Assembly (NCBI GenBank): GCA_030698405.1
Contig: JAUYMU010000049.1
Coordinates: 1-60,686, forward strand
Length of the DNA stretch: 60,686 nucleotides
Direction: 5' to 3'
DNA from: Bacteroidota bacterium
Lineage (GTDB): Bacteria > Bacteroidota > Bacteroidia > Bacteroidales > Prolixibacteraceae
Part shown: one piece after another, positions 10,322 to 27,669 of the stretch
Layout of the letters: the number at the start of each line of letters is the position of its first letter
Numbering within the stretch: the stretch's first letter is position 1
Notes under the pieces: generated by a model
What the model was told of the DNA's origin: nothing
Database searches by the model: none
Seen by the model: the letters and a program-made list of their open reading frames with translations, nothing else
Position numbers and translations under genes: made by a program

Positions 10322-10683
10322 CAGAAAAGAAAGAAAAAACAGGCAAGCGAATTTCGAAGGCGGACCTGAAGAGTGTACTTGGGGGTACCATTTTGGCCAG
10401 CGAAAAAGTGACTAAACAGTTGCCATTCGTAATTTTTATCGCTTTTCTGGGTATCGGCCTAATCACCAACCGCTACTGGACAGAAAAAACAATCCGGAAA
10501 ATAGATATGGTGAGAGATTCTTTAAAAGAATACAAAGCCGAATCGGTAATCCACGAAACGCAGCTGATGTACATCAACCGCCCATCGGAAGTCACTAAAA
10601 AAGTGATTGAACGGAAGATTGACTTAGTTGAACCTCTTGAACCGGCTAAAAAAATTATAATAAAAAAAACAACAGCTAAATAA
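10318..10683 (+). CDS. ftsL: FtsL-like cell division protein
   Basis: A 121-residue bitopic membrane protein: a basic cytoplasmic N-terminus (1-35), one transmembrane helix (about 37-53, LPFVIFIAFLGIGLI) and a periplasmic helical segment (55-100) with coiled-coil character. This is the form and position of Bacteroidota FtsL, which with FtsB and FtsQ activates FtsWI. It overlaps rsmH by 4 bp and shares one base with ftsI (TAATG). Assignment rests mostly on topology and synteny, since FtsL sequence is poorly conserved. Confidence 0.8.
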   Translation: MTEKKEKTGKRISKADLKSVLGGTILASEKVTKQLPFVIFIAFLGIGLITNRYWTEKTIRKIDMVRDSLKEYKAESVIHETQLMYINRPSEVTKKVIERKIDLVEPLEPAKKIIIKKTTAK

Positions 10684-13247
10684 TGGAAATCAGGAAAGCC
10701 ATAACTATACGATTCGGTATCATCTATTTTTTGATTGCCATGTTCGGACTTGTTATAATTGGCAGGATTCTCATTATTCAGAATGTGGATACCGAAAAAT
10801 GGCAACAGATAGCAAAAGACCTGAGAAACAATACCACCGACATTTGGGCCAAACGTGGTAACATTTGTGCCGATGATGGCAGCATTTTATCTACATCGGT
10901 TCCCTATTACGAGATCAGGATGGACATGAAAGCGCCGCGTGTGCAGCAAGTATTTGAAAAGGAATCGGATGCGATGTCAGAAGAATTGTCATCTTTTTTC
11001 GGCTTCTCCAAAACTGATTTCAAAAAGCGCCTACAAATAGCTTTCGACAAAGGAAACCGTTGGTTTCTGGTCAGTCCAAAGCAACTCGATCACAATAAAT
11101 TTCAGACCTTCAGACAGCTTAAATATATGTCCCGCAGCTATTTTGGCTCTGGGTTGGTGGTAGTTACCGAGAACAAACGCATATTACCACATGGCGATTT
11201 GGCAAGCCGAACCATTGGAGTTTTAAACAAGGGTGTTTTTGGCGGAATGCACGGATATGTTGGTTATACAGGTGTTGAAGGATTATCAGAAAATTACCTG
11301 GCCGGTCAAAATGGGATGGCGCTAAAACGAAATTACTCCGGGAGCTGGATAAATACTCCGCTGATAGCGCCAAAGGAAGGGAAAGATGTGATCACCACTA
11401 TCAATGTTAATCTTCAGGATTATGCCCAATCTTCTTTAGGCAAACAAATGGAAATCAGCCAGGCCGAATGGGGAACAGCCATCGTAATGGAAGTTAAAAC
11501 CGGAAACATAAAGGCAATAGCCAATATGGGTCGTAAAAAAGACGGTACCTATGGCGAAACCTACAATTTTGCTTTTGGCCATGCAGGTTGCAGTGAACCC
11601 GGATCGACCTTTAAACTAATGTCGATGATGGTAGCCATGGAAGAAGGTTATGTGGATACAATGGATATGTTTGATACTGCAAATGGAAAATGGGAATATA
11701 AGCGGCAGACAATGTACGACAGTGATTTCGGCAAAGGGGGACATGGAATGATCAGTATGAAACGCATCTTCGAACTTTCATCAAATATTGGAACAGCAAA
11801 AATTATCACCAAATTTTATGAAGGGCGGGAAAAAGATTTTATCGACCGGATTTACAGTTTTGGATTAAACAAGCCACTTGGACTCGGATTTCTAGGTGAA
11901 GCCAATCCCGAAATCAAATATCCGACCGATGCAAGCTGGTGGGGACCTTCGCTTGCATGGATTTCTCACGGTTACGAAATAAAAATTACGCCCATTCAAA
12001 CCCTTACATTTTACAATGCCGTGGCAAACAATGGGGTAATGGTAAAACCCAAATTTATCGAAGAAATCAGAGAAAATGGGATGCCAGTCCGCAAGTTTAA
12101 TACTGAAATAATCAATCCTTCAATTTGTTCAAAAACAACTTTGACCAAAGCCCAGGACTTACTTAAAGGTGTTTGCACCCATGGAACGGGCAGAATACTA
12201 AAAAACCCATACTATACCATAGCCGGAAAAACCGGTACCGCAGTAATTGCAGACGACAACAGAGGATATAAAACTGGCGGGGTTAAAAAATACCAGGCTT
12301 CTTTTGTTGGTTATTTTCCGGCTGACAAACCTGAATTTACCTGTATCGTGGTTATTGTTGGCCCGAAAGGAAAATTTTATGGCGGTTCGGTTGCTGGCCC
12401 TGTTTTCAGGGGAATTGCCGATAAAGTGTATGCATCGTATCTTGAACCTGCTGCCGATTCAATTCCACCTTACAATGAAATACCAGTTGTAAAACCCGGG
12501 TTAAAAGATGATGTTCTGCTTTTCACACAGGAGCTGGGACTGAAAAACCAGTCTCAAAATATGACTGCTGAATATGTTGCAGTTGCCAATGATACAATGA
12601 CACTGTATGTAAAAGGTATAGCTGACGCTCCGGGTACTGTTCCTGATGTGGTTGGAATGGGCGCAAGCGATGCAGTTTATCTTCTCGAAAAGGAAGGCCT
12701 GACTACCAATATAAACGGGTTCGGTCGTGTATTCCGCCAATCATTAAAACCGGGAGTACCTATTGCCAGTGGCGAAACTATTTCTCTTGAACTTGGCTTC
12801 GATAAACTCGAAATCATGAAAAGGGATAGTATTAAAGCCAGAATTTTTATTCAGGAAGAACAATTGGGATTGGTTCAGGAAGGAGACTCAGCTAAAGTGG
12901 TGAAAGTTGAAGAAGCAAAACCAAAGGCCAGTAAAACTCCTGCGGAAAAGCAAAAACCAAGTCAGGAAGCCATTGACAAGTGGAAAGCAAAAGTTGCTGC
13001 GCAGAAAGAACTGGAGAAAAAAAATGCAGCAGCGGGAAATTCCGAAAAACCAAAACCAAGCCAGGAGGCCATTGATAAGTGGAAAGCAAAGGTTGCTGCA
13101 CAAAAAGAACTGGAAAAGAAAAATGCAGCAGCGGGAAAGACCGAAAAACCAAAACCAAGCCAGGAAGCCATTGACAAATGGAAGGCTAAGGTAGCTGCAC
13201 AAAAAGCCCTGGATGCAAAAAATGCGAATGCAAAAAAAACAGAATAA
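10683..13247 (+). CDS. ftsI: FtsI/PBP3 transpeptidase with PASTA domain and C-terminal repeats
   Basis: An 854-residue class B penicillin-binding protein for septal peptidoglycan. It has an N-terminal transmembrane anchor (about 10-30), a dimerisation domain, and a transpeptidase domain with nucleophile motif STFK (Ser308), SSN in LSSNIG, and KTG in AGKTGTAV. A PASTA domain follows (about 650-705, TVPDVVGMGASDAVYLL). The family is normally about 650-720 residues; the extra length is a Lys/Ala/Glu-rich tail with three 33-residue repeats (see the repeat entry). It sits between ftsL and murE and is probably part of the same transcript. Confidence 0.93.
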   Translation: MEIRKAITIRFGIIYFLIAMFGLVIIGRILIIQNVDTEKWQQIAKDLRNNTTDIWAKRGNICADDGSILSTSVPYYEIRMDMKAPRVQQVFEKESDAMSEELSSFFGFSKTDFKKRLQIAFDKGNRWFLVSPKQLDHNKFQTFRQLKYMSRSYFGSGLVVVTENKRILPHGDLASRTIGVLNKGVFGGMHGYVGYTGVEGLSENYLAGQNGMALKRNYSGSWINTPLIAPKEGKDVITTINVNLQDYAQSSLGKQMEISQAEWGTAIVMEVKTGNIKAIANMGRKKDGTYGETYNFAFGHAGCSEPGSTFKLMSMMVAMEEGYVDTMDMFDTANGKWEYKRQTMYDSDFGKGGHGMISMKRIFELSSNIGTAKIITKFYEGREKDFIDRIYSFGLNKPLGLGFLGEANPEIKYPTDASWWGPSLAWISHGYEIKITPIQTLTFYNAVANNGVMVKPKFIEEIRENGMPVRKFNTEIINPSICSKTTLTKAQDLLKGVCTHGTGRILKNPYYTIAGKTGTAVIADDNRGYKTGGVKKYQASFVGYFPADKPEFTCIVVIVGPKGKFYGGSVAGPVFRGIADKVYASYLEPAADSIPPYNEIPVVKPGLKDDVLLFTQELGLKNQSQNMTAEYVAVANDTMTLYVKGIADAPGTVPDVVGMGASDAVYLLEKEGLTTNINGFGRVFRQSLKPGVPIASGETISLELGFDKLEIMKRDSIKARIFIQEEQLGLVQEGDSAKVVKVEEAKPKASKTPAEKQKPSQEAIDKWKAKVAAQKELEKKNAAAGNSEKPKPSQEAIDKWKAKVAAQKELEKKNAAAGKTEKPKPSQEAIDKWKAKVAAQKALDAKNANAKKTE
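12954..13244 (+). repeat. Three 99-bp tandem repeats encoding the FtsI C-terminal tail
   Basis: Three in-frame copies at 12954-13052, 13053-13151 and 13152-13244, phased at exactly 99 bp (33 codons); the last is slightly shortened and diverged. The core of each unit reads KPSQEAIDKWKAKVAAQK. Copies 1 and 2 are almost identical in DNA. The peptide is highly charged and probably helical. Tandem homology of this kind allows copy-number change by slippage or recombination. Confidence 0.9.
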
Positions 13248-19861: not shown

Positions 19862-20088
19862 AGCCCCCTTCCCGTTCCCCCGAAGGGGAAATGCCTTGGG
19901 CTGTGATTTGCTTTTATTTTTGCTTTAGAGGAGCATAATATTTTTAGAAAAAATGAATAAATGGAGACAGCCGTATGAGAGATAAAGCTAATATAGGTTG
20001 AACTATATTTCGGACGGTATGGAATATATTTTTTGAAATGATTTAAAACGGAATCAAACCACATGTGTGGTTAAATTTGAATATTTAA
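19862..20088. repeat. Composite intergenic repeat, copy 2, plus ACCACA hairpin
   Basis: The region after the murG stop begins with the same GCCCCCTTCCCGTTCCCCC block as copy 1, followed by GTATGAG (about 19972) and TTTCGGACG (about 20010). It then has ACCACA/TGTGGT (about 20059-20072) followed by an A/T-rich tail, like the first hairpin of the terminal repeats. No gene is seen. It separates murG from the inserted ORF6N gene. Confidence 0.5.
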
Positions 20089-20090
20089 AC

Positions 20091-20612
20091 ATGGATTTAG
20101 TTAGTATTCATAGAAAAATTTATGAGGTTCGCGGTTTGCGGATTATGCTCGATTACGATCTGTCAGATTTGTACGAGGTAGAAACAAGGGCATTAAAACA
20201 GGCAGTAAGGCGTAACAAGGATCGTTTTCCTGAGGATTTCATGATTCAATTAACAGCAGAGGAAGTGCAGGTTATGGTATCACAATTTGTGATACCTTCT
20301 AAACAACAATTGGGAGGGGCGTTGCCCTTTGCATTTACAGAGCAGGGAGTGGCAATGTTAAGTTCAGTCCTAAAAAGCAAAAAGGCACTGCAAGTAAATA
20401 TCGCTATTATGCGGGCATTTGTAGCACTTCGACAATATGCGCTCAATTACAGCGAAATAGCCAATAAGTTAAGCGAGTTGGAACAACAATACAACCGACA
20501 GTTTGCCGATGTGTATGATGCGCTGAATTATTTAATGAACGACAAACAGGCTCGGGAGTCATTTGAAGCCCGGAGGCCAATAGGCTTTAGCCCATTGCCG
20601 TCTGATGATTAG
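20091..20612 (+). CDS. ORF6N-domain DNA-binding protein
   Basis: A 173-residue protein from ATG 20091; a GTG start 8 codons earlier is less likely because it falls in a hairpin repeat. Residues 10-100 form an ORF6N domain (KIYEVRGLRIMLDYDLSDLYEVE kind of opening, then FPEDFMIQLT), followed by FTEQGVAMLSSVL and a helical C-terminus with coiled-coil tendency. ORF6N domains are phage-type DNA-binding modules common on mobile DNA in Bacteroidota. Its place between murG and murC, next to repeats, suggests insertion into the dcw cluster. Function unknown. Confidence 0.85.
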   Translation: MDLVSIHRKIYEVRGLRIMLDYDLSDLYEVETRALKQAVRRNKDRFPEDFMIQLTAEEVQVMVSQFVIPSKQQLGGALPFAFTEQGVAMLSSVLKSKKALQVNIAIMRAFVALRQYALNYSEIANKLSELEQQYNRQFADVYDALNYLMNDKQARESFEARRPIGFSPLPSDD

Positions 20613-20796: not shown

Positions 20797-22182
20797 ATGC
20801 ATAAATTAACCGACATAAAACAAGTGTATTTCCTGGGAATCGGGGGAATCGGGATGAGCGCACTGGCACGTTATTTTGCGAGTCAGGGCATTGCTGTTTC
20901 CGGATACGACCGGACTTCCACCGAACTGACACTTCAACTTGAAAGCGAAGGAATTGCAGTGCATTATCACGACGACCCTGACCAATTGCCTTCTAATCTG
21001 AATATTGACGACTCATTAATCGTTTATACACCGGCTGTTCCAGCCAATCATCAGGAATTAAATGTTCTGATTGACCGTGGCTTTTCCATTCACAAACGTT
21101 CGGAAGTGTTGGGAATCATTTGCAATAGCCAGCGAACCATCGCTGTTGCCGGAACACATGGAAAAACTTCGGTTTCAACCATGACTGCCCATATTTTGAA
21201 ATCCTCGGCTCTTGGGTGCGCAGCATTTCTGGGCGGAATTTCAAAAAATTACCAGACCAACTTGTTGCTCGATAATACCGGCAGTCCATGGGTGGTGGCA
21301 GAAGCCGATGAATTCGACCGATCATTTTTGCAACTCAAACCAGAACTGGCAGTTATCACCTCGATGGATGCCGACCACCTCGACATTTACGGTTCGCACG
21401 AAAAAGTCATCGAAAGTTTTCAATTATTTGCCGCCCAGGTTAAAGCAGGTGGCGCCTTGGTATTGAGAAAAGGACTTTCGGTTGGTGCAGATCTTCCGAA
21501 CATTCGGATTTTCACCTATTCGATTACCGAAGATGCCGATTTTTGTGTCGAAAATGTAATGTTAAAAGCAGGATTTTACCAGTTCGATCTGAAAACTCCT
21601 GATTTCCGGATTAAAAAAATGGTATTGAATTACCCTGGCTTGCTGAATGTTGAAAATGCGGTGGCAGCTTCAGCCCTCGCAATTCTCGCAGGTGTTTCTC
21701 CGGAAGAAATACGAAAAGCGCTTGCAACCTATTCAGGAGTGAAAAGAAGGTTCGATGTACAGCTGAACAACGGAATTTTTGTGCTGATCGATGATTATGC
21801 ACATCATCCGGCGGAATTGAGGGCAACCATTCAATCGGTAAGAGATATATACAAGGGTCGGAAATTGACAGGCATATTTCAACCACACCTTTACAGCCGC
21901 ACAAAAGATTTTGCAACCGGATTCGCAAAAAGCCTGGATTTGCTCGATGAAATTGTGCTGCTGGATATTTATCCGGCCCGCGAGCTACCAATAGAAGGAG
22001 TAAGTTCTGAACTGATTTTTAAACAGATAAAGAACCGTAAAAAAATAATTTGCACCAAAGAAGAGTTGCCCGTGATATCCGGATTGTTTAAACCTGGAAT
22101 TATTTTGATGATGGGCGCCGGGGATATTGACACACTGGTTGAACCGGTTAAAAAGCAATTGCTAAAGTATGGAGATAGTTAA
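20797..22182 (+). CDS. murC: UDP-MurNAc:L-alanine ligase MurC
   Basis: A 461-residue Mur ligase with N-terminal GIGGIGMSALARYF, ATP loop GTHGKTSVST (about 118-127), EADEFDRSFL, and C-terminal DDYAHHPAELRATI and QPHLYSRTKDF. It attaches L-Ala to UDP-MurNAc. It overlaps ftsQ by 14 bp. A 184-bp gap with no visible gene lies between it and the ORF6N gene. Confidence 0.95.
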   Translation: MHKLTDIKQVYFLGIGGIGMSALARYFASQGIAVSGYDRTSTELTLQLESEGIAVHYHDDPDQLPSNLNIDDSLIVYTPAVPANHQELNVLIDRGFSIHKRSEVLGIICNSQRTIAVAGTHGKTSVSTMTAHILKSSALGCAAFLGGISKNYQTNLLLDNTGSPWVVAEADEFDRSFLQLKPELAVITSMDADHLDIYGSHEKVIESFQLFAAQVKAGGALVLRKGLSVGADLPNIRIFTYSITEDADFCVENVMLKAGFYQFDLKTPDFRIKKMVLNYPGLLNVENAVAASALAILAGVSPEEIRKALATYSGVKRRFDVQLNNGIFVLIDDYAHHPAELRATIQSVRDIYKGRKLTGIFQPHLYSRTKDFATGFAKSLDLLDEIVLLDIYPARELPIEGVSSELIFKQIKNRKKIICTKEELPVISGLFKPGIILMMGAGDIDTLVEPVKKQLLKYGDS

Positions 22183-22924
22183 AAAGATATTGGTCCTATT
22201 AGGTTGGTTTTGTCTGGCAGGGTTTGTCGGATTCACAATTTATTTCACCTACACCCAAATGGAAGCGGTGAGGTGCCAGTCAATTGTGGTCTTTATCAAT
22301 CCCAATTCTCCACGATTTATGGATGAAGCTGAGATAACCGAAATGATCGAAAAATCGGGTGAACCAATTATCGGACACAGGCTTTCGGCCATTGACATTG
22401 AGATGCTCGAAACAAAACTGACCACATTTGCAACCCTGACCAATGTGGAAATTTACCGGAAAGTTGAAGCAAAAGGATGGTCGTTCAGCGGAAAACTTGT
22501 CATCCATGTTGATGAACGTACACCAATTCTAAGGATTAAAGATGCAAAAGAAGATTATTATCTCGATCGTGAGGGAGTAAAGATTCCGGTTTCATCGAAA
22601 TATATTGAACGAATCATGATTGCAAGCGGAACATTTCCTGATGAAACGATAAAAAGCAATTTGCTGAAAATGACCGACTTTGTGAACAAAGACGATTTCT
22701 GGAAAGCACAGATTGAGCAGGTATTAATTCAGCCGAACGGAGAATTGTTGCTCCTGCCACAGGTTGGCGATTATCTCATCGAATTTGGCCGTCCCGATGA
22801 TTATGAGTTGAAATTCAGGAATTTAAAAGCAGTTTACCAGCAAGGTTTTAAAAATTTTGGTTGGAACAAGTATAAAGCCATCAGTGTGAAATATCAGAAC
22901 CAGGTTGTTTGCACAAAAAAATAG
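22169..22924 (+). CDS. ftsQ: Cell division protein FtsQ
   Basis: A 251-residue bitopic protein with one N-terminal transmembrane helix (about 7-28) and a periplasmic part with a POTRA-like region (about 35-105, ATLTNVEIYRKV) and a beta domain (about 105-250, YLDREGVKIPVS). FtsQ scaffolds FtsLB in the divisome. It overlaps murC by 14 bp and is 3 bp from ftsA. Sequence is weakly conserved, but position and fold pattern agree. Confidence 0.9.
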   Translation: MEIVKKILVLLGWFCLAGFVGFTIYFTYTQMEAVRCQSIVVFINPNSPRFMDEAEITEMIEKSGEPIIGHRLSAIDIEMLETKLTTFATLTNVEIYRKVEAKGWSFSGKLVIHVDERTPILRIKDAKEDYYLDREGVKIPVSSKYIERIMIASGTFPDETIKSNLLKMTDFVNKDDFWKAQIEQVLIQPNGELLLLPQVGDYLIEFGRPDDYELKFRNLKAVYQQGFKNFGWNKYKAISVKYQNQVVCTKK

Positions 22925-22927
22925 ATT

Positions 22928-24217
22928 ATGGACAAGAACGAAAAAATATTTGCAGCAGTTGACATCGGATCCACAAAAGTGGTAGCTCTCGCCGGAAAAA
23001 AGGTTGACAACAATAAAATCCAGATTGTTGGACTTGGACACAGCCCCTCGCGAGGCATTAAACGGGGTGTTGTGCTAAATGTTGAGGAGGCATTTGCTGC
23101 CGTGAATGACGCTGTAAATCACGCCGAAAAAGAATGCGGTCAGGTGATTGAAAACGTTTTTGTCAATATATCAGGACAACATCTGACCACGCTGACCACC
23201 AGCATACAGGGAAGTATCGGGCGCGACCATTATGTGACCGAGGCCGATGTCAATCAAATGGCAGAGCAGGCCCGCAAAATTGAACTGCCCGATGGAATGT
23301 CCGTTTACCACATCAATTCCGAATTCTATACCGTTGACAATGAGTCAGGAATTGTCAATCCGGTTGGAGCCATCGGCGATAAAGTCGTAGGAACTTATAA
23401 ATTACACATTGCTCCTGAATATTATACAAGGAACATTGCCACTTGTTTCAGGCAGGGCTCCATCAATGTTCAGAAATCAATTCTGGATCCGATTGCCTCT
23501 TCCGAAGTGGTTCTGACGGAAGATGAAAAGGAAGCCGGTGTTGCCCTGGTTGATATTGGCGGAGGAACGACCAAAATTTCCATTTTCTGTGACGGAGTAC
23601 TTTGCTACACTTCCATGGTTCCGTTTGGAGGCAACGTACTTACACACGATATTAAAGAGGGATGTTCGATCACTGTGCGCCAGGCCGAATCGCTGAAAGT
23701 TCAGTTTGGTCAGGCAATTGCTGATTTTGCACCTGAAGACAAAGTAGTTACCATTCCTATTCAGGGTTGGGAGCCACGCCAGATTTCGTTTAAAAGTCTG
23801 GCCAATATTATCCAGGCGCGAGTGGAAGAAATTGTGGATGGATTTGCTTTCCAGATCAGAAAATCAGGATATGCCGATAAATTGGGCGCCGGAATTGTAA
23901 TTACCGGAGGAACCTCGCTGTTGCCCAACCTGGGTCAGTTGATTAAGTTTCGCACCGGTTTTGATGTCAGAAAAGGCAGTCCCAATCTGAATTATTTCGT
24001 TGCACGCAAAGAAGTGGACGATCCCCGGTTTTCAACCGTTCTTGGCTTGCTAAAAATGGCTGCGGAAGAAGAAGGCCCGGTTGGAAAACGCAAGAAAGTG
24101 AAGGTTCCAAAAGTGAAATCGAATGAACCCGGTTTAATTAAAGTAATGCAAAATAAAATATTTCAGGGTGTTCTCGGATTTTTTGAAGAAAACCCTGATG
24201 ATACTGAAATGTCTTAG
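22928..24217 (+). CDS. ftsA: Cell division protein FtsA
   Basis: A 429-residue actin-like ATPase that tethers FtsZ to the membrane. It begins AAVDIGSTKVVAL (phosphate 1), has VDIGGGTTKISIF (phosphate 2) and ITGGTSLLPN (adenosine motif). The C-terminus, IFQGVLGFFEENPDD, is a predicted amphipathic membrane-targeting helix. Normally FtsA binds the conserved C-terminal peptide of FtsZ; here it precedes two ftsZ genes of which only the second has that peptide. Confidence 0.95.
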   Translation: MDKNEKIFAAVDIGSTKVVALAGKKVDNNKIQIVGLGHSPSRGIKRGVVLNVEEAFAAVNDAVNHAEKECGQVIENVFVNISGQHLTTLTTSIQGSIGRDHYVTEADVNQMAEQARKIELPDGMSVYHINSEFYTVDNESGIVNPVGAIGDKVVGTYKLHIAPEYYTRNIATCFRQGSINVQKSILDPIASSEVVLTEDEKEAGVALVDIGGGTTKISIFCDGVLCYTSMVPFGGNVLTHDIKEGCSITVRQAESLKVQFGQAIADFAPEDKVVTIPIQGWEPRQISFKSLANIIQARVEEIVDGFAFQIRKSGYADKLGAGIVITGGTSLLPNLGQLIKFRTGFDVRKGSPNLNYFVARKEVDDPRFSTVLGLLKMAAEEEGPVGKRKKVKVPKVKSNEPGLIKVMQNKIFQGVLGFFEENPDDTEMS

Positions 24218-24242: not shown

Positions 24243-25511
24243 ATGATCGACGAGATTCTTAATTTCGGAATAGAGCAAGCAAATTCTTCCATCATCAAAG
24301 TTATTGGTGTGGGGGGAGGTGGGTGTAATGCCGTCAAACACATGTTTGATGAAGGCATTGTAGGTGTTGACTTTATTATTTGCAACACCGATGCGCAGGC
24401 GATGCAAAACAATCCGGTGCCCATCCGGATTCAGCTCGGGGTAACCCTTACTGAAGGCCGTGGTGCGGGCAATTTACCTGAACAGGGTGAACAGGCTGCC
24501 ATCGAAAATCTGGACGATATCAGGAATGTTCTGGAAGGTACTACCAAAATGGTGTTTATCACCGCCGGAATGGGAGGTGGAACCGGAACCGGGGCTGCCC
24601 CCGTAATTGCACAACTTGCACGCGATTTGGGAATCCTGACCATTGCGGTCGTTACCCTACCCTCTCCGGCAGAAGGGAAACGGAGGTACGATCAGGCACG
24701 CGCAGGAATTGAAAAGCTGAAAGATCATGTGGATAGTATGCTGGTAATCAGCAACGAAAAACTTCATAAAATATACGGAAACCTTCCGGCATCGGTGGCA
24801 TTCAAAAAAGCCGACAACATCATCACAACAGCGGTAAAGGGAGTTGCCGAAATAATTACCCTTCACGGAAACATCAACATCGACTTTGCCGACGTGTGCA
24901 CGGTTATGGCCGGCAGCGAAGTATTTATAATGGGAACCGGCTTTGCAACCGGTGAAGGTCGCGCGATGAAGTCTGTTCAGCAGGCGCTCGAATCGCCTTT
25001 GCTCGACAGCAGCAGTATTAAAGGAACCAAAGATATATTGCTCAATATGATCTCCGGAACACAGGAAATCACGATGGGCGAAATTGGCGAAATCATTGAT
25101 TATTTGCAGGAAGCTGCAGGTCAGGATGCAACAATTATCTGGGGAAATGGCATCGATTTGCGACTTGGCGACCAGATAAGTGTCACAATTATTGCGACCG
25201 GTTTCGATGTGAACCCGAACCGGATTTTCCAACGGCCATCTGATGTGGTTGAATTGGTAATGGAAGACAATGGTTTTGAAATCAACCTTGAGGATGAAAA
25301 ATCACTCGAAGTGGTTGAAACGACAACTTCTAAAAGGGAGGTTTTGAAAGAAGTTAAAAACTTTCCGCTTCGGGAAGAAAAGCCCGGGAAACGAAAAACG
25401 CGACGAAAAAATGAACTCGTTGGCGAGTCAAATCCAGAAGACACAAACAGCTGGTTTTCGCGTCAGTTTTCGAAATTCTTTGAAGACAAGGAATCAGATG
25501 AAATGCAATAA
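24243..25511 (+). CDS. ftsZ: FtsZ paralog 1, divergent, without the usual C-terminal peptide
   Basis: A 422-residue tubulin-like GTPase. The nucleotide site is intact: GVGGGGCNAV (about 22-31), NTDAQAM, and the tubulin signature GMGGGTGTG (about 103-111). The T7 loop NIDFAD, needed for GTP hydrolysis between subunits, is also intact. Divergent points are VVTLPSPAEGKRR where FtsZ usually has a PF(x)EG motif, and MAGSEVFIMGTG after T7. The C-terminus (after about 325) has a basic linker (GKRKTRRKNE) and ends in SWFSRQFSKFFEDKE, with no IPAYxRK-type peptide. It lies 25 bp after ftsA and 33 bp before the second ftsZ. Confidence 0.93.
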   Translation: MIDEILNFGIEQANSSIIKVIGVGGGGCNAVKHMFDEGIVGVDFIICNTDAQAMQNNPVPIRIQLGVTLTEGRGAGNLPEQGEQAAIENLDDIRNVLEGTTKMVFITAGMGGGTGTGAAPVIAQLARDLGILTIAVVTLPSPAEGKRRYDQARAGIEKLKDHVDSMLVISNEKLHKIYGNLPASVAFKKADNIITTAVKGVAEIITLHGNINIDFADVCTVMAGSEVFIMGTGFATGEGRAMKSVQQALESPLLDSSSIKGTKDILLNMISGTQEITMGEIGEIIDYLQEAAGQDATIIWGNGIDLRLGDQISVTIIATGFDVNPNRIFQRPSDVVELVMEDNGFEINLEDEKSLEVVETTTSKREVLKEVKNFPLREEKPGKRKTRRKNELVGESNPEDTNSWFSRQFSKFFEDKESDEMQ

Positions 25512-25544
25512 ATATCAGAATATTAACAAGAAAAATATAGGATC

Positions 25545-26963
25545 ATGTCAAATGAAATAATGAATTTTGATATTGCCTCGGACTCAGGTTCAATCATAAA
25601 GGTAATTGGTGTAGGCGGAGGTGGTGGAAATGCGGTAAATCACATGTACCACCAGGGGATTCGTGATGTGGATTTTATGGTTTGCAATACCGATTCACAA
25701 GCATTGGTAAACAGCCCGGTTCCGTTCAAGGTTCAACTGGGGTCGTCGCTCACCGAAGGGCGCGGCGCCGGAAATAAACCCGAAACCGGTCGCGATGCTG
25801 CCATCGAAAATATTGAAGATGTAAAAAAGATACTGGGCAGCAATACGAAAATGGTTTTCATTACTGCCGGAATGGGCGGTGGAACAGGTACAGGTGGCGC
25901 TCCGGTAATTGCGCAGGCAGCCAGAGAATTGGGCATCCTGACAGTTGGAATTGTGACCATTCCTTTCCGTAACGAAGGTCGCCGCCGCATCAAGCAAGCC
26001 ATTGACGGGATTGCAGCCATGGAAACGCATGTTGATTCGCTGCTGGTGATCAACAACGAACGCATCCGCGAAATGTACGGCGATTTTAAAATCTCGGACG
26101 CCTTTGCAAAAGCCGATAATATTCTGGCTACCGCTGCAAAAGGAATTGCAGAGATCATTACTGTTCCCGGCTACATTAACGTTGACTTTGCCGATGTTGA
26201 AACGGTGATGCGCAACAGTGGTGTCGCCCTCATGGGAACCGGTGTTGCTTCAGGAGTAAACCGCGCTTTGATTGCCGTTGAAGAAGCTTTGAATTCGCCG
26301 TTGCTGAACAACAACGACATTTTGGGTGCACGCAATATTTTGCTGAACATTACATCAGGATCAGAAGAAATTACCATGGACGAAATTGGCGAAATCACCG
26401 ATTTTATTCAGGAAAAGGCCGGAAATTCTGCCGATTTAATCTGGGGAAATGGAGTTGACGAGGAATTGGGCGACAAGATTTCGGTAACAATTATTGCTAC
26501 CGGTTTCAGCACAAGCAGTATTCCTGAAATGGCAATGAACCAAAATCAGGAAAAAACCTATCATACACTGAGTGATGAAATTCAGGGGAATAATTCTTCA
26601 GCCAGGTCGGAAATAAAACCTTCGCTTGAAAATGAATTGTACGGTTCGAAGAATGTGAAGCAAAAAACATTCGAATTTGAGATAAACACCAGCGTGTTCG
26701 ACGAGTTTGAAGAACTGTACGGAAATAATCCCAAAAAGGAAACCTTCAACCAGGTAAACGAGCCGGTTGATTATACCCAAACAACTGAAGAAGCGGTAGA
26801 TGAACTGGAAAATATTCCTGCTTACCGTCGGAAAAATCTTCGGTTTTCAGGGTTTAAAAAAAAAGTTGAAGAAAAATTCTCCAGATTTTCTATTTCGCCC
26901 GATGAAAATAATGATGTAATTTTACGTGACAATAATTCATACCTTCACGACAACGTTGACTAA
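25545..26963 (+). CDS. ftsZ: FtsZ paralog 2, canonical Bacteroidota type
   Basis: A 472-residue tubulin-like GTPase that forms the Z-ring. It has GVGGGGGNAVNHMY, NTDSQAL, GMGGGTGTG and T7 loop NVDFAD followed by VETVMRNSGVALMGTG, all close to the usual sequence. A linker of about 100 residues leads to IPAYRRKNLRF (about 423-433), the conserved C-terminal peptide that binds FtsA and other partners. A further tail of about 40 residues follows (FKKKVEEKFSRF and an acidic end), longer than in many FtsZ. Probably co-transcribed with paralog 1 and the YqeY gene. Confidence 0.95.
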   Translation: MSNEIMNFDIASDSGSIIKVIGVGGGGGNAVNHMYHQGIRDVDFMVCNTDSQALVNSPVPFKVQLGSSLTEGRGAGNKPETGRDAAIENIEDVKKILGSNTKMVFITAGMGGGTGTGGAPVIAQAARELGILTVGIVTIPFRNEGRRRIKQAIDGIAAMETHVDSLLVINNERIREMYGDFKISDAFAKADNILATAAKGIAEIITVPGYINVDFADVETVMRNSGVALMGTGVASGVNRALIAVEEALNSPLLNNNDILGARNILLNITSGSEEITMDEIGEITDFIQEKAGNSADLIWGNGVDEELGDKISVTIIATGFSTSSIPEMAMNQNQEKTYHTLSDEIQGNNSSARSEIKPSLENELYGSKNVKQKTFEFEINTSVFDEFEELYGNNPKKETFNQVNEPVDYTQTTEEAVDELENIPAYRRKNLRFSGFKKKVEEKFSRFSISPDENNDVILRDNNSYLHDNVD

Positions 26964-27425: not shown

Positions 27426-27475
27426 AAATACAATGTCTAACCTGAGAATTCATAGGTATAGACATTTACGGTAAA

Positions 27476-27509
27476 CAAAGAAAGCGGGTTGAATGGCTCG
27501 CTTTCTTTG
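27476..27509 (+). terminator. Terminator after the dcw cluster
   Basis: A perfect 11-bp stem CAAAGAAAGCG (27476-27486) / CGCTTTCTTTG (27499-27509) with a 12-base loop, ending in a T-rich arm. It lies 50 bp after the YqeY gene. The rest of the gap up to 27669 shows only very short open frames and no recognisable gene. Confidence 0.75.
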
Positions 27510-27669
27510 TTTGGTTATCTTTTATTGCATCAAGGAATCCAATAAAGGAAAGCGCTTCAACAAAATCAGTTCAGAATAACCTGTTAATGACATTTCAAAG
27601 GGAAATTGAAAAGGTTGGCAGGTTGAAAACAAAATGAATAAAGATTATTTGAAATATTTTCTCGATTTA

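Follow-up and report, generated by a model that had tools for sequence, protein, structure and literature searches.

An old tandem pair of ftsZ genes in Prolixibacteraceae that may divide membrane tethering between two different C-terminal tails

We analyzed a window of 60,686 nt (positions 1 to 60,686 of contig JAUYMU010000049.1, assembly GCA_030698405.1) from the 5.49-Mb genome of a Bacteroidota bacterium of the Prolixibacteraceae (Bacteroidales; family code f1, with other families given here by code only) and found two intact ftsZ open reading frames between ftsA and yqeY: ftsZ1 (24243–25511, 422 amino acids [aa]) and, downstream of it, ftsZ2 (25545–26963, 472 aa). Coordinates given for these genes, their motifs, and their neighbors in the cluster all refer to the (+) strand. 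The original prediction of two adjacent, divergent ftsZ genes was borne out by profile searches, but it overlooked the C-terminal tail, which on sequence grounds is the main difference between the two products. FtsZ1 combines an intact GTPase core with a W/F-rich C-terminus and lacks the IPAYxR peptide, and FtsZ2 is a canonical Bacteroidota FtsZ. The explanation that we favor, with moderate confidence, is an old duplication in which membrane tethering has been divided, FtsZ1 being anchored by its own tail and FtsZ2 through FtsA, probably within one ring.

Both products belong to the FtsZ family by profile and by motif. Specifically, ftsZ1 and ftsZ2 scored 357 and 364 bits, respectively, against the NCBIfam ftsZ equivalog TIGR00065 (cut-off, 295 bits), the Pfam domains Tubulin (PF00091) and FtsZ_C (PF12327) matched both products, and the two genes were the only PF00091 matches in the whole genome. 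The GTP-binding signature GGGTGTG, predicted earlier for both copies together with an NxDFAD T7 loop, is present at 24573–24593 (residues 111–117 of FtsZ1; invariant in a 31-row alignment) and at 25875–25895 (FtsZ2; invariant in a 30-row alignment), and the T7 loop reads NIDFAD in the translation of ftsZ1 (24876–24893, residues 212–217) and NVDFAD in that of ftsZ2 (26178–26195). Across the Prolixibacteraceae, GGGTG[TS]G and N.D..D were found in 32/32 FtsZ1 and 32/32 FtsZ2 proteins. Profile score, GTP signature, and T7 loop thus place FtsZ1 in the family, although it is not of the canonical FtsA-docking type, while FtsZ2 has all the sequence marks of an FtsZ, namely, the core motifs and the conserved C-terminal peptide. 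The cores show 62% identity in an ungapped alignment of 321 residues; outside them, the proteins can be aligned only in pieces of ~15 bits.

The FtsZ1 and FtsZ2 cores are both strongly constrained. Ratios of nonsynonymous to synonymous substitution (dN/dS), calculated by the Nei-Gojobori method for same-genus pairs with a core dS between 0.1 and 1.2, had a median of 0.027 for FtsZ1 (maximum, 0.074; 39 pairs) and 0.024 for FtsZ2 (maximum, 0.060; 57 pairs), compared with 0.047 for whole FtsA (20 pairs). Decay of paralog 1, a possibility raised with the original prediction, is ruled out by these ratios (~0.03) and by the intact frames: intact relatives occur through the family, and no internal stops were present in over-cut-off matches among the matches listed. 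A pseudogene has practically no probability left, and the same applies to a misassembly of two strains, which is ruled out by the recurrence of the pair described below.

The tails set the two copies apart. In general, FtsA and other adaptors dock on FtsZ at its conserved C-terminal peptide, and FtsA binds the membrane by its own C-terminus. FtsZ2 carries this peptide as IPAYRR (26814–26831, residues 424–429), a putative docking site for an adaptor such as FtsA, and has the extreme C-terminus NNSYLHDNVD (26931–26960), of a type that is common in single-copy FtsZ and missing in ftsZ1. Tails were counted in complete proteins of at least 300 residues, with loci L047, L158, L171, and L172 set aside beforehand; the single copies came from our sample of the order and from named loci, many of them from Flavobacteriia or other Bacteroidota chosen by likeness to FtsZ1. 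The pattern PA[YFH].[RK] was kept in 55/56 last copies of multi-copy loci and in 84/92 single copies but was absent from all 62 upstream copies, which is the contrast between paralogs that divided tethering requires; the sole exception among the last copies is that of L045. A stricter pattern had given 38/40, 81/93, and 0/46, respectively, in an earlier count, and a loose pattern for the NN..LHDNVD-type end matched 84/93 single copies and 0/46 upstream copies. Single and downstream FtsZ proteins therefore mostly end in the Bacteroidota fashion, bearing NN..LHDNVD as the last residues after an IPAYxR-type peptide, and upstream copies do not. By eye, locus L047 (f16) follows the same rule, copy 1 having a hydrophobic/acidic end and copy 2 a PAHKR peptide. 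The NN..LHDNVD end lies beyond the adaptor peptide, yet it is common to most single FtsZ proteins examined. The downstream FtsZ of f100 (L159 to L163) is short (373 to 380 aa), has little sequence beyond the peptide, and lacks the LHDNVD end.

Since FtsZ1 has no adaptor peptide and yet keeps a constrained core, it must either reach the membrane in another way or ride on FtsZ2. Its proposed membrane-targeting segment runs from W404 to E417 (25452–25493) and is followed by an acidic end. W404, F405, F409, and F413 are kept in at least 90% of 31 Prolixibacteraceae FtsZ1 rows, the preceding linker being variable, and W[FLI] occurs near the terminus in 32/33 FtsZ1 proteins of the family. More broadly, W[FILV] within the final 35 residues was found in 51/61 unique upstream tails, compared with 1/50 last and 0/92 single tails. 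Plotted as a helix with 100 degrees per residue, the segment places W404, F405, F409, F412, and F413 in one half, a side that also includes the polar Q408. The mean helical hydrophobic moment of the tail was 0.60 for upstream copies, 0.39 for last copies, 0.37 for single copies, and 0.71 for FtsA (upstream versus single tails, p = 7e-20), and no last (n = 40) or single (n = 93) tail beat its own shuffles at 0.05. In addition, the FtsZ1 tail resembles the tail of FtsA from the same genome: across 33 Prolixibacteraceae genomes, their alignment exceeded composition-matched shuffles with a z of 8.9, whereas the controls gave −1.3 for the FtsZ2 tail (32 genomes) and −0.8 for the FtsZ2 peptide region (31 genomes). 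Corresponding values for upstream copies were 2.3 in f23 (6 genomes) and 3.1 in f100 plus Marinifilum (6 genomes), and those for the first, second, and third copies of f32/f67 were 1.7, −0.3, and −0.6 (4 genomes each). Because the genomes are related, none of these z values is a probability. In the window, the C-terminus of ftsA itself (24128–24214) is hydrophobic/basic and then acidic, like that of FtsZ1.

Several observations weigh against a self-anchoring FtsZ1. The amphipathicity is moderate: only 17/46 upstream tails beat their own shuffles (p of 0.05), compared with 105/137 FtsA tails, the upstream mean moment is lower than that of FtsA (p = 9e-10), the window's own FtsZ1 tail falls short of that level (p = 0.11), and three f100 tails score best in a nonterminal stretch. 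The z of 8.9 is inflated by sequence kinship, and the likeness to FtsA is one of pattern only (hydrophobic/basic, then acidic), is weak in f32/f67, and does not extend to the W, which occurs in only 18/152 unique FtsA tails. Two same-genus genomes (L072 and L186) have tails that lack the FF pair, L045 and L158 break the tail rule that most other tandem-ftsZ loci follow, and the FtsZ1 tail evolves faster than that of FtsZ2 (tail dN over core dS, 0.22 versus 0.12). Literal capture of the FtsA tail by FtsZ1 is unsupported, the W being missing from most FtsA tails.

The closest rival to a membrane anchor is a new protein-docking peptide, by which FtsZ1, still in the Z-ring, would bind a protein partner (FtsA elsewhere on its surface, a Zap-type bundler, or another divisome protein). 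Docking between a peptide and a protein also typically conserves single residues strongly, as is seen for W404, F405, F409, and F413, and the moderate amphipathicity, with its 17 individually significant tails, would suit such a role. However, the resemblance to the same-genome FtsA tail in Prolixibacteraceae speaks against it, and the tails of upstream copies in other families commonly keep the hydrophobic-then-acidic pattern with different exact residues, which suits a membrane segment better. We regard a docking peptide as unlikely, though it deserves serious consideration.

The pair is a family-wide trait. Among 37 Prolixibacteraceae genomes with all matches listed, 35 have two adjacent PF00091 matches over the cut-off, the exceptions being G013 (one match, at a contig edge) and G008 (none), and the pair also occurs in one-contig genomes (e.g., G011, G033, and G417); an assembly fault, which the original prediction had left to be checked, is thereby dismissed. 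A wider count over 108 genomes (completeness, at least 90%), with match positions known for part of them, gave at least two PF00091 matches in 105 genomes from 22 genera (G013 had one match; G008 and G724 had none). This persistence bears on the idea that FtsZ1 is a redundant dosage copy with a merely degenerate tail. Adjacent, co-oriented genes would raise dosage, and the faster evolution of the FtsZ1 tail fits degeneration, but a dosage copy should retain the ancestral tail, and here the peptide is gone from every upstream copy counted while W[FILV] is kept in most unique upstream tails, with at least two matches persisting across the 22 genera. A dosage copy is accordingly disfavored, and we consider it very improbable.

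The gene order is consistent with joint expression of the pair. Of the statement that both genes directly follow ftsA (22928–24217), the part concerning ftsZ1 held (gap, 25 bp), but ftsZ2 follows ftsZ1 instead (gap, 33 bp). A further 12 bp separate ftsZ2 from yqeY (PF09424; 26976–27425), the final gene of the likely transcript, and a terminator-like hairpin lies 3′ of yqeY at 27472–27513. Because of these short gaps and the hairpin, the genes ftsA-ftsZ1-ftsZ2-yqeY may form a single transcript. A promoter scan gave 16 sites compared with 10.8 ± 3.0 expected, and nothing in it was decisive. Under divided tethering, FtsZ2 would act as an ordinary FtsZ whose IPAYRR peptide docks on FtsA, while FtsZ1 would keep the core for polymerization and GTP hydrolysis and most likely insert its W/F-rich end, of the FtsA-tail type, directly into the inner membrane. 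The two proteins, probably made together from one transcript, would then work together where the cell divides; the simplest way would be co-assembly through the longitudinal interface that they share, by which some of the ring would be anchored without FtsA.

Beyond the Prolixibacteraceae, we examined an even draw of 392 Bacteroidales genomes, of which 53 had multiple matches; these were listed again except for five family members, together with two further family members. Two or three strong PF00091 matches within a few kilobases were found in 25 of the 392 genomes, namely, in f1 (7/7), f23 (6/6), f100 (5/5), f81 (1/1), f16 (1/1), and f87 (1/6) and, with three copies, in f32 (3/3) and f67 (1/1). 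In the other multi-match genomes, the second match was weak, fragmentary, or distant, and five genomes of the draw had no match at all. The original prediction that such a pair is unusual agrees with a phylum sample of 296 genomes, 293 of them outside Bacteroidales, in which 30 of these 293 genomes had multiple matches and none of the 30 had an adjacent ftsZ pair. Among the best 80 of 588 confirmed loci, named relatives of FtsZ1 with the same type of pair (60% to 67% identity) were found in Maribellus luteus, a Prolixibacteraceae metagenome-assembled genome (MAG), a Draconibacterium MAG, and Prolixibacter bellariivorans. In multi-copy loci, the copies stand in a row directly after ftsA in 59/60 cases, the exception being L158 (f87, genome G207) with the order ftsA-Z-yqeY-Z, and FtsZ1 adjoins FtsZ2 in every Prolixibacteraceae locus fetched. 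yqeY comes right behind the array in 40/60 loci and is elsewhere unmatched in the stretch or moved; of 96 single-match loci, 58 read ftsA-ftsZ-yqeY and 37 read ftsA-ftsZ without a yqeY match. By eye, neither ftsZ of L158 has a hydrophobic/acidic end. Two full ftsZ genes ~147 kb apart occur in a one-contig genome of f58 (L171/L172, G318), and in f129, a family outside the order, many genomes show an additional PF00091 match away from ftsZ; most of these matches score ~75 to 113 bits, and those of four genomes exceed 150 bits.

Phylogenetic analysis of the core agrees with the predicted old age of the duplication. The main tree held 69 rows, 28 of 97 rows (22 loci plus the FtsZ1 of L044) having been dropped for long branches, redundancy, or distance. 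Prolixibacteraceae FtsZ1 formed one clade (support, 100/100) and FtsZ2 another (98/94), the deep branches being weak, and a quick tree of all 97 rows gave the same two clades (100 and 98) with the deep order unresolved. Three of the four named relatives were placed in the tree, all within these clades, and the window is accordingly taken to belong to the Prolixibacteraceae. The phylogeny proposed with the original prediction thus puts paralog 1 in a clade of its own, and a recent genus-level duplication is ruled out by this family-wide clade. In Marinifilum sp. D737, which also has an ftsZ pair, the first copy grouped with the first copy of f100 (support, 97/90). We then compared topologies under the LG+F+G4 model, with groups named after viewing the first tree. 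Independent duplication in all five groups (f1, f23, f100 plus Marinifilum, f32/f67, and f81) was rejected by the approximately unbiased test (p = 0.0012); therefore, at least some of the duplication is older than these groups. A single origin of all tail-type copies was not rejected (log-likelihood difference, 5.8; p = 0.41), nor were own duplications limited to f1, f23, and f100 (27.6; p = 0.145). One-clade tests gave p values of 0.44 for all tail-type copies and 0.40 for the same set minus the first copy of f32/f67 and, for own duplications, 0.38 for f1, 0.20 for f23, 0.33 for f100 plus Marinifilum, and 0.0135 for f32/f67. One old origin followed by many losses would be the simplest reading of these results, though not a proven one.

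Divergence is also visible within the core. At 17 sites, each Prolixibacteraceae copy has one residue in at least 85% of sequences and FtsZ1 and FtsZ2 differ, and at 11/12 fixed core differences with a clear state in 15 single copies, the change was assigned to FtsZ1. Residue 41, for example, is mostly G in the FtsZ1 of f1, f23, and f100 and D in their partners, in the f32/f67 copies, and in most single copies. Such a derived FtsZ1 might have diverged at its interfaces, as would be expected if it formed a separate filament system outside the Z-ring (e.g., for cell shape or elongation). We consider this improbable, as the ungapped 62% core identity and the place next to ftsA in 59/60 multi-copy loci argue against it.

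Copies in other families depart further from the Prolixibacteraceae type. The four loci of f32 (L153, L154, and L155) and f67 (L156) have an ftsZ triplet after ftsA, in which copies 1 and 2 are without the adaptor peptide and differ from each other in their hydrophobic/acidic ends and copy 3 is canonical. The pattern P.{2,4}E[GA].{1,2}R was found in 1/4 of the first of these three copies, and GGGTG[TS]G was found in 1/4 downstream copies of f23 (L049, L164, L165, and L167), where the adaptor peptide is kept. Because of these motif departures, some copies in other families need not be normal GTPases. Extending divided tethering to the order, we propose, tentatively and with slightly less than even confidence, that Bacteroidales hold an old, vertically kept lineage of self-anchoring FtsZ and a heteropolymeric Z-ring with two anchors, with a third copy bearing another tail in some families.

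Other features of the window lie outside the pair. The gene in the ftsQ position (22169–22924, [+] strand) owes its name to position only, with no Pfam or NCBIfam match. An ORF6N-domain gene (20067–20612) lies between murG and murC within the dcw (division and cell wall) cluster; this domain is typical of mobile elements and phages, and in the genome it gave nine match rows, eight of them over the cut-off and some representing pieces of one gene. A penicillin-binding-protein-like gene (10683–13247, named by eye) contains at its 3′ end a 99-bp tandem repeat in 2.8 copies (12945–13225), which encodes a repetitive lysine/alanine-rich tail of its product.

Compared with the canonical Bacteroidota FtsZ described by TIGR00065, FtsZ2 is alike in its core, its IPAYRR peptide, and its NN..LHDNVD end, whereas FtsZ1 is alike in the core and catalytic motifs but lacks the peptide and the end, and a second ftsZ in the same cluster is itself a departure. 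Rhizobial and magnetosome ftsZ copies are further cases of bacteria with two ftsZ genes. According to PMC9871819, the few bacteria with two ftsZ genes have their additional copy elsewhere than in the dcw cluster; the present pair, which likewise provides two FtsZs, is an exception to that statement in that the extra copy is inside the cluster and adjoins the first. Its carriers include named Prolixibacter, Maribellus, and Marinifilum strains as well as a Draconibacterium MAG. Among the matches listed from the open-license literature, we found no report of paired ftsZ in Bacteroidota or of a bacterial pair with divided tethering, which is weak evidence of absence.

Divided tethering by FtsZ paralogs has been reported for FtsZ1 and FtsZ2 of green-plant plastids (PMC11285052). 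The plastid motif is RR/KLFF, whereas the W/F segment seen here is longer, ends in acidic residues, and is a putative membrane binder; the adaptor would be FtsA, and the lineage differs. In Odinarchaeota, as PMC12583498 describes, one of two FtsZs is bound to the membrane by an amphipathic helix and the other through an adaptor, and both co-pellet. The likeness to the present pair lies in the two FtsZs and their divided tethering, here proposed from sequence, but the archaeal system has its helix at the N-terminus and SepF as adaptor, and its genes neighbor those for ribosomal proteins and tRNA synthetases. The same paper cites Mycoplasma genitalium FtsZ as reported to bind the membrane itself; that protein belongs to another lineage, and here a presumed self-anchored copy coexists with one of the adaptor type. 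If divided tethering holds, the pair would add a bacterial case to the theme known from plastids and Odinarchaeota. A comparable anchor swap has been engineered in FtsZ-YFP-mts, reportedly a fusion of FtsZ with a membrane-targeting sequence. In PMC5979038, artificial constructs of this kind formed dynamic rings on bilayers without FtsA and served to explore the role of an adaptor such as FtsA against self-anchoring. That swap was man-made, whereas here nature seems to have made it within the division gene cluster, with putative membrane binding, and to have kept both versions; a self-anchoring FtsZ lineage, if real, would be the natural counterpart of the engineered FtsZ-mts.

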